From: Deltaproteobacteria bacterium
GTDB lineage: Bacteria; Desulfobacterota; Syntrophobacteria; Syntrophobacterales; Syntrophobacteraceae
Reading direction: 5' to 3'
Assembly (NCBI GenBank): GCA_021793275.1
Contig: JAJYTC010000035.1
Coordinates: forward strand, 1 to 32,280
Length of the DNA stretch: 32,280 nucleotides
Shown here: one piece after another, positions 8,801 through 11,093 of the stretch
How the letters are laid out: the number at the start of each line of letters is the position of its first letter
Numbering within the stretch: position 1 is the stretch's first letter
Notes under the pieces: model-generated
What the model saw: the letters and a program-made list of their open reading frames with translations, nothing else
Told to the model about the DNA's origin: nothing
Databases searched by the model: none
Translations under genes and position numbers: made by a program

Positions 8801-8916
8801 GTCAAAAGTCGAAGGTCAAAAGTGGAAAGGTGGAGCGCGCGGGCGCCCGGAAATTCACAACGACTTACAACTTTCGAATTACGACTTACGACTTTCGACC
8901 TTCGACTTTCCGCTTT
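8799..8916. repeat. Inverted array of 7-bp repeats between ispG and rel
   Basis: The left arm (8799-8833) is five consecutive heptamers of the AAGTCGA type (aagtcaa, aagtcga, aggtcaa, aagtgga, aaggtgg). After a GC-rich 27-bp centre, the right arm (8861-8916) is eight heptamers of the complementary CGACTTT type (cgactta, caacttt, cgaatta, cgactta, cgacttt, cgacctt, cgacttt, ccgcttt). The arms can fold into a long imperfect hairpin. The array overlaps the ispG stop at one end and ends 11 nt before the rel Shine-Dalgarno at the other. Confidence 0.85.
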
Positions 8917-8936
8917 TGCTTACCCCGGAGGGGTTA

Positions 8937-11093
8937 GTGCGCTTCTATGAATTGATAGACGCCATTTTGGCTTATATGCCGCAGGCAAACATAGAGCTTC
9001 TGGAAAAAGCCTATGTTTTTGTCTCCAAGGCCTACAGGGACAAAAATATTGGCGGGGAAGGACCGTACCTGAGCCATCCTCTCGCCATCGGAGCGATTCT
9101 TGCAAGGATGCGCCTTGACGAAGAGAGTGTAGCCGCCGGCTTGCTCCATGATTCACTCGAGAAGGAATATGTTGAGCCCGAAGAACTTGTCGAGATGTTC
9201 GGGCAGGACGTCTGCCGGATCGTGCAGGGCGTAACCCGGTTGACGCAGATTGCCTATGGCAACCGGCAGGAGCGTCAGGCCGAATACATCCGCAAGATGA
9301 TCATGGCGATCTCCAGTGATGTCCGGGTGGTCCTTGTCAAGCTTGCCGACCGCCTGGACGGCATTGGCGGAACGTTGCGCGGAGGCAATCGGTCCGGCGC
9401 GGGCCTGGCCCGTGAAACCCTCGACATCTATGCGCCGCTTGCGGGCAGGCTCGGCATCGACTGGATGAAACAGGAACTGGAAAACTTTTCCTTCAGATGC
9501 CTCTATCCCGAAGCCTATGCCGAAATTGAAGCCGGCCTTGCCAAAACCGAGGAGGACCGCATTCGGTACATCAAGGAGGTCCAGCAGGTCCTCAAGGCGC
9601 GGATGAGCGAGTTCGGGATCAAGGGCCGCATATACGGGCGTCCCAAGCACATCTACTCCATCTATCAGAAGATGGAACGGCAGAAGCTGGACTTGACGCG
9701 TATCTACGACCTGATAGCGTTCCGTGCCGTGGTGGATTCGGTCAAATCCTGCTATGAGGCCCTCGCTCTCATTCATGCCCTGTGGGAACCGGTGGAAGGC
9801 AGGTACAAGGACTATATCGCAAGACCGAAAAACAACATGTACCAGTCTTTGCATACGACCGTTATCGGTCCTTACGGAGAAAGGATGGAAGTCCAGATCC
9901 GCACCGAGGAGATGGACCAGGTCGCTAACGAGGGTATTGCCGCTCACTGGATGTACAAGGAAGGAAAACCGGTCACCGAGATGGATCGGGCGGAGACTCT
10001 GCGGTTTTCATGGCTTCGCCAGGTTATGGAATTGGGTCGAGACCTGGCAGGGGGCAAGGGCGATTACAAATCGGTAATGGAAGCGCTCAAAGTCGACTTC
10101 TACCCTGATGAGGTCTATGTCTTTACACCCGTTGGGGATGTGAAGGCTTTTCCCAAGGGCGCCACTCCGGTTGACTTCGCCTATGAGGTCCATACCGAGG
10201 TCGGCCACAGGTGCGTGGGCGCAAGGGTTAACGGCAAACTGGTTTCACTCAGGTATGAACTCCAGAACGGCGACACCGTTGAAGTGCTGACCTCGGCCAG
10301 TCACAAGCCCAGTAAAGACTGGCTAAAACAGGTCAAGTCCGCCAAGGCGATAAACCGCATCAGGCATTGGTTCAAAACCGAGGAGAGGGAGCGTTCGATC
10401 TCGCTGGGCAGGGAAATCTGCGAAAGGGAATTCAGGAAGAAGGGGTTGAATTTCAACAATTATCTGAATTCAGCAGAACTTGCCGAAGCAGCCAAAGCGT
10501 TTTCGCTAAAAAGCGTAGATGATCTTCTCGCAGGCATAGGCTATCACAAGATTACCCCGAATCAGGTAATCGGTAAACTGACGGCGCTTCCCCCCGAAGA
10601 GGAACATCCACGGGAAGAGGTGATCGAGAAAAAGAAGCCGGTTGCTTCAAAAGACGGCATCAAGGTCGATGGACTCGAAGATATCCTCATCAGAATGGCC
10701 CAATGCTGCAACCCGGTTCCGGGCGAACCCGTGATGGGATACATAACCAGGGGGCGCGGAATTACGGTTCACCGGGTTTCGTGCAAAAATCTCCAGAGGG
10801 GAAGCGCTGAGGGCAGAAAGATAGACGTGCAGTGGAATTCGGGAAAAGAGCTGCTTTTTCCGGTAGATATCCGGGTCGCCTACTCCGGCGAAAGGGATGT
10901 GCTCGCCGCGCTAAACGCGGTTCTGGGCCAAATGGACGTTAATGTTATTACTCTCAGAGTCGATCGTCAGGCGGACACATCGAGCGTATGTCACCTGCGA
11001 ATAGAGGTGAAAGACTCCAAGCATCTTCAGCGGGTTATGTCAGCTCTAAGAAACGAAAGAGGGGTCTACAAAGTCCAAAGATCAATGGAATGA
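8937..11093 (+). CDS. RelA/SpoT-family (p)ppGpp synthetase with degenerate hydrolase domain
   Basis: Long Rel/SpoT enzyme of the stringent response, 718 residues, with the full order HD (about 25-150), synthetase (230-345), TGS (390-450), a Cys-containing domain (MAQCCNPVPGEPVMGY) and a C-terminal ACT domain. Synthetase motifs look functional: GRPKHIYSIYQKM, RIYDLIAFR (Asp258), RYKDYIARPKNNMYQSLHTT and MEVQIRT (Glu318). The hydrolase site is altered. His71-Asp72 remain, but the usual V-E-D after them reads S-L-E-K (Lys76 for the catalytic Asp), and KLADRLHNMRT reads KLADRLDGIGG, losing the conserved Asn. Hydrolysis is therefore doubtful. GTG at 8937 is chosen because GGAGG precedes it by 5 nt and RFYELIDAILAYMP matches the usual family N-terminus. 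An upstream TTG at 8916 lies inside the repeat array. Confidence 0.93.
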   Translation: MRFYELIDAILAYMPQANIELLEKAYVFVSKAYRDKNIGGEGPYLSHPLAIGAILARMRLDEESVAAGLLHDSLEKEYVEPEELVEMFGQDVCRIVQGVTRLTQIAYGNRQERQAEYIRKMIMAISSDVRVVLVKLADRLDGIGGTLRGGNRSGAGLARETLDIYAPLAGRLGIDWMKQELENFSFRCLYPEAYAEIEAGLAKTEEDRIRYIKEVQQVLKARMSEFGIKGRIYGRPKHIYSIYQKMERQKLDLTRIYDLIAFRAVVDSVKSCYEALALIHALWEPVEGRYKDYIARPKNNMYQSLHTTVIGPYGERMEVQIRTEEMDQVANEGIAAHWMYKEGKPVTEMDRAETLRFSWLRQVMELGRDLAGGKGDYKSVMEALKVDFYPDEVYVFTPVGDVKAFPKGATPVDFAYEVHTEVGHRCVGARVNGKLVSLRYELQNGDTVEVLTSASHKPSKDWLKQVKSAKAINRIRHWFKTEERERSISLGREICEREFRKKGLNFNNYLNSAELAEAAKAFSLKSVDDLLAGIGYHKITPNQVIGKLTALPPEEEHPREEVIEKKKPVASKDGIKVDGLEDILIRMAQCCNPVPGEPVMGYITRGRGITVHRVSCKNLQRGSAEGRKIDVQWNSGKELLFPVDIRVAYSGERDVLAALNAVLGQMDVNVITLRVDRQADTSSVCHLRIEVKDSKHLQRVMSALRNERGVYKVQRSME

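Follow-up and report, generated by a model that had tools for sequence, protein, structure and literature searches.

Predicted reciprocal splitting of (p)ppGpp synthetase and hydrolase between two long RSH proteins in Syntrophobacteria, separate from the RelA/SpoT pair

RelA and SpoT of E. coli are the famous pair of (p)ppGpp enzymes. The window analysed here, a stretch of 32,280 nucleotides, corresponds to contig C65 in the assembly of a Syntrophobacteraceae-like MAG (4.65 Mb, 97% complete); among named genomes, those closest to this MAG are Syntrophobacteraceae MAGs and Desulfoferrobacter suflitae. The window carries a long RSH gene with a seemingly damaged hydrolase site and an intact synthetase site, which raises the question of what this enzyme does and how the cell would remove (p)ppGpp. 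From residues, trees and patterns of constraint, we consider it very probable that this protein, Rel1, is a synthetase akin to RelA whose hydrolase domain is a pseudo-enzyme, that a second protein, Rel2, is a hydrolase akin to SpoT whose synthetase domain is one, and that this split is independent of RelA/SpoT.

The rel1 gene is flanked by ispG and an HU-like gene. Its frame is open from 8916 to 11093 (a 725-aa reading), and the GTG at 8937 is the likely start. The original prediction counted from this GTG, so its His71-Asp72 pair is H78-D79 of the 725-aa reading. The Pfam families PF13328, PF04607, TGS, RelA_AH_RIS and ACT_4 match in this order, all above cut-off, identifying Rel1 as a long RSH, and TIGR00691 scores 680 bits against a cut-off of 499. 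The features of the locus are as follows.

8927-8931, forward strand: putative ribosome-binding site GGAGG, 5 nt 5' of the GTG at 8937 (sequence)
8937-11093, forward strand: Rel1, complete long RSH of 718 aa, HD-SYN-TGS-helical/ZFD-ACT (ORF and translation, Pfam, TIGR00691)
9009-9458, forward strand: predicted pseudo-hydrolase (HD_4) domain (PF13328 match; pLDDT mostly 85-94; octad I-H-H-D-E-K-D-G)
9045-9080, forward strand: degenerate first HD motif IGGEGPYLSHP in place of R-x-SGEPYxxHP, with R44 lost and H53 kept (alignments)
9147-9164, forward strand: HDSLEK in place of HDxxED, with H77, D78 and E81 kept and D82 changed to Lys (translation and alignment)
9345-9374, forward strand: ADRLDGIGGT in place of ADRxHNMRT, with D144 kept and N148 changed to Gly (translation and alignment)
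9636-9968, forward strand: intact synthetase domain (PF04607, 144 bits), 13/13 checked residues canonical, RKHSDRYHEQRAH

Between ispG and rel1, positions 8801-8915 also hold an inverted repeat with imperfect 25-nt arms (88% complementary, separated by 55 nt), composed of ACGACTT-like heptamers. As RNA, its fold is beaten by only 1 of 200 shuffles (z -2.5). Heptamer arrays resembling it are common in G024, a genome of the same order, and rare in the window's own genome.

We read the catalytic residues with E. coli SpoT as guide, in RelSeq numbering, and from alignments to B. subtilis Rel and E. coli SpoT. Against the canonical octad R-H-H-D-E-D-D-N (R44, H53, H77, D78, E81, D82, D144 and N148), Rel1 has lost three of the eight key hydrolase residues, R44 having become Ile, D82 Lys and N148 Gly; the reference motifs RKSGEPYIIHP, HDVVED and ADRLHNMRT are those replaced. 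The original prediction, which had described a Glu-Lys in place of Glu-Asp after the His-Asp pair, DGIGG in the HNMRT segment, an apparently lost Arg in the RxSGEPYxxHP region and an intact synthetase site, is thus borne out on all these points. It made no mention of the metal ligands H53, H77, D78 and D144, which Rel1 retains together with E81. Rel1 has the synthetase residues of a bifunctional Rel[HS] (RKHSDRYHEQRAH) without its full set of hydrolase residues. A 2026 structure paper on RelSeq (PMC13299517) reports that the R44Q and D78A variants no longer hydrolyse and that Asn148 touches both the guanine base and the 3' phosphate. From the residue losses and these mutant and structure data, we infer that the Rel1 hydrolase is inactive, while slow residual hydrolysis is conceivable because the four metal ligands and E81 remain.

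The damage is common to ten same-genus genomes, and N148 is replaced, usually along with other changes, in all 39 relatives that bear the Rel1/Rel2 pair. Together with an intact reading frame under purifying selection (dN/dS of the pseudo-HD domain about 0.10 within the genus), this excludes chance or sequencing error as the source. The AlphaFold prediction retains the HD fold, and the catalytic half of the model matches solved Rel structures. Such constraint fits the expectation for a regulatory domain, a role shown for the pseudo-hydrolase domain of E. coli RelA (PMC8012599). The extent of decay varies by genus: some have lost a single residue and others most of the site, and the metal ligands are often retained. 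In the Rel1 of G015, which we take to be S. fumaroxidans, the sole departure from the octad is N148 to Asp.

An alternative is that Rel1 remains a weak or unusual hydrolase, either because the lost contacts are compensated or because the site acts on another nucleotide. The purifying selection, the well predicted fold and the conservation of the metal ligands and E81 within the genus, broken only by E81 to Arg in L009 and D144 to Glu in L014, would agree with such an activity. Nevertheless, variation at the lost positions is free, with G, D, E, T, V, R or M in place of N148 and no common substitute, and other genera additionally lose D78, H53 or E81. The alignment of the HD domain across relatives, proposed earlier as a check for compensation within the clade, revealed none, the positions drifting to different residues by genus. 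R44Q by itself kills the RelSeq hydrolase (PMC13299517). We regard this alternative as quite improbable and favour a dead hydrolase in Rel1.

If so, (p)ppGpp would have to be removed by another enzyme. Synthetase-family matches in the assembly comprise two proteins only, Rel1 and Rel2. Rel2 (G000:C15), also a long RSH, measures at least 714 aa; its gene runs off the end of the contig, and its tail appears to continue on C240. Its hydrolase octad is intact, R-H-H-D-E-D-D-N, and its synthetase positions H252, D264, E323 and Q325 read G, N, L and K. The original prediction had reasoned that, if a second Rel existed, Rel1 would represent the parallel evolution of a RelA-like monofunctional synthetase; the hydrolase-intact protein on C15 supports this reading, and its lost synthetase residues, which lay beyond the view of that prediction, make the loss reciprocal. 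Within the genus, dN/dS is 0.045 for the Rel2 HD domain and 0.084 for its pseudo-synthetase domain, a constraint on the latter that fits a regulatory role and does not prove inactivity. Inspection of the Rel2 gene neighbourhood gave no functional clue.

The genome search suggested at the outset also returned a small alarmone hydrolase (SAH; G000:C263:28468-28851) and detected no small alarmone synthetase in the assembly. With all eight octad residues present and a homologue in S. fumaroxidans, this SAH could be the main hydrolase and Rel2 a decaying copy. We consider this very improbable, given that Rel2 occurs in 39 of 40 relatives, has the highest hydrolase-domain conservation of the set (mean identity 0.70) and evolves under strong constraint in that domain, whereas SAH-like matches turned up in some but not all of the relatives searched. 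Rel2 thus remains the preferred hydrolase, possibly assisted by the SAH. Contamination of the MAG was also considered as the origin of Rel2, and was ruled out by its presence in 39 relatives and its co-divergence with Rel1; the Mantel correlation between Rel1 and Rel2 distances (r 0.96, 37 genomes) indicates that Rel2 is not a binning error.

All 39 relatives that carry both proteins exhibit reciprocal loss. In every one, Rel2 keeps the complete octad and has replaced H252, D264, E323 and Q325, the residue pattern predicted for a SpoT[Hs]-like enzyme, with hydrolase intact and synthetase lost. Rel is intact in the only relative without Rel2 (G038) and in a related named MAG (L075). Mean pairwise identities across 37 genomes are 0.53 for the HD and 0.66 for the SYN domain of Rel1, and 0.70 and 0.52 for those of Rel2, compared with 0.62 and 0.55 in 81 single Rels. 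The resulting HD/SYN ratios of 0.80 for Rel1, 1.36 for Rel2 and 1.14 for single-Rel genomes show that constraint has shifted in opposite directions in the two proteins.

We extended this reading to the phylum by examining the resident Rel in about 80 further genomes from a 198-genome sample. Besides Syntrophobacteria, pairs occur in two sets of families, f20/f68/f80 (7 genomes) and f27/f50/f65 (8 genomes), and in three named MAGs, two of them Desulfuromonas-like. A hydrolase-type second copy, by its residues hydrolase-intact and synthetase-dead, is present in 57 genomes, and all 57 have a resident Rel with a damaged octad. In all of the about 87 readable genomes lacking such a copy the octad is complete. 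As some genomes are close relatives, these counts are not independent. The tree supports a small number of independent contrasts, four, each of which points the same way (sign test p 0.125). The single Rel of G074, with a seemingly damaged octad, looked like a counter-example, but this reading was frameshifted: the HD domain lies in another frame, where the octad is complete.

Other arrangements were seen as well. L180 (G096:C79), of the same phylum, has an intact bifunctional Rel and an extra copy of the reverse kind, a 504-aa RSH whose HD domain is dead and whose synthetase residues are intact. The Desulfuromonas-like genomes L279, L280, L281, L176 and L177 carry a shorter hydrolase-type RSH of about 483-537 aa with a heavily degenerate synthetase region. 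In the unclassified MAGs L094 and L103, each with a single HD-type RSH, D82 is replaced by Glu (HDAIEE) in an otherwise intact octad.

How often the hydrolase was lost was addressed with a tree of resident Rels built from synthetase and C-terminal columns, leaving out the HD domain (48 rows, mixture model). In this tree, the damaged residents form four groups apart from one another. A single clade of all of them is rejected (p-AU 1.1e-5), as is a grouping of the damaged residents of Syntrophobacteria and f20 (p-AU 0.013); joining the f27/f50 group with the f65/Desulfuromonas-like group gives p-AU 0.11, and these two may share one origin. On these grounds we count at least three separate hydrolase losses. 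Descent of all pairs from one ancestral duplication, with the multiple losses being a long-branch artefact, would be in line with a larger, quicker tree (126 rows) in which the single clade is not rejected (p-AU 0.148). In addition to the mixture-model result, this is opposed by the placement of the f20-group resident Rels among intact single Rels (99/90) and by the f50-type second copies, which are separate and lie outside the Rel2 clade. We therefore judge a single duplication unlikely and retain the reading of repeated loss.

A second tree, of the second copies (HD and C-terminal columns), bears on how the pairs arose. The f20-type second copies nest inside those of Syntrophobacteria (99/97 and 99/98). 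The simplest reading is that the f20 lineage received a hydrolase-only gene by transfer and that its resident Rel subsequently lost hydrolase function, a reading that is provisional because of long branches; that of the Rel2 clade measures 1.7, and its root is uncertain. More generally, we lean slightly towards the view that RshD, the family to which Rel2 appears to belong, moved between bacterial classes and that the resident bifunctional Rel of each holder lineage loses its hydrolase. If true, the RelA/SpoT type of division of labour would be a repeatable evolutionary outcome, and Rel1, as a metal-binding, catalytically dead pseudo-hydrolase, would offer a natural test of whether synthetase-only RSHs need the loss of metal binding.

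Taken together, our analysis suggests that Rel1 would act as a (p)ppGpp synthetase of the ribosome type, with a hydrolase domain that has lost its activity and is kept as a folded pseudo-enzyme, probably for allosteric control of the synthetase as in E. coli RelA. (p)ppGpp would be removed by Rel2, with its intact hydrolase and predicted dead synthetase site. The two halves of one bifunctional Rel would then reside on two genes, as in RelA/SpoT, through an independent split in which the hydrolase-only copy was presumably gained before the resident hydrolase was lost. What we say of catalytic states, of ribosome-dependence in Rel1 and of regulation by the pseudo-domains is predicted from sequence. 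The residues point to complete splitting of synthetase and hydrolase in another phylum, at least three times and independently of E. coli RelA/SpoT, with a near-perfect link between the presence of a hydrolase-only copy and the loss of the resident hydrolase. Moreover, the graded decay of the pseudo-hydrolase among genera provides test material for the proposal in the literature that losing Mn2+ binding was the key step towards RelA.

Rel1 resembles RelA[hS] of Beta- and Gammaproteobacteria in being a long RSH with an intact synthetase and a dead hydrolase kept as a folded pseudo-domain, and in coexisting with a hydrolase-competent paralogue. However, Rel1 groups with Desulfobacterota Rel in the tree and E. 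coli RelA elsewhere; E. coli RelA reads FP for HD, whereas Rel1 keeps its metal ligands. Rel1 also lacks the RelA-type H-loop insertion between helices 6 and 7, being of bifunctional-Rel length and 6 residues shorter than EcRelA, and the NCBIfam RelA equivalog scores 475 bits on it, below the cut-off of 728. Acquisition of Rel1 by transfer as a RelA orthologue was ruled out by the tree and the H-loop. RshB of Bacteroides, in another phylum and compared by description, is likewise a second copy of Rel, and its HD domain has diverged (PMC3153485).

A literature search with little reach into subscription papers found only Atkinson et al. 2011 on the Syntrophobacter split, and no mention of RshD in the other ppGpp papers searched. 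Atkinson et al. reported the second copies of S. fumaroxidans and Desulfotalea psychrophila as RshD[HS], in one clade with 100% support, labelled the partner Rel[HS], and reported complete splitting only in Moraxellaceae (PMC3153485). Tamman et al. 2022 characterised the SpoT of A. baumannii as a hydrolase-only enzyme and counted at least two cases of subfunctionalisation, both of them gammaproteobacterial, complete splitting again being confined to Moraxellaceae (PMC9974481). Like Rel2, the Moraxellaceae SpoT[Hs] (A. baumannii, PDB 7QPR) has an intact hydrolase octad, keeps its TGS and zinc-finger domains, and has replaced its synthetase catalytic residues, the Asp and Gln positions included; in contrast, Rel2 is a separate lineage, of the RshD clade and not SpoT. 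Rel2 appears to be the RshD of Atkinson et al., matched by organism and divergence, and it belongs to one supported second-copy clade spanning Syntrophobacteria and f20/f68/f80. Whereas both copies were labelled [HS] in 2011, the residues read here would correct this bifunctional label, making the second copy [Hs] and its partner Rel [hS].
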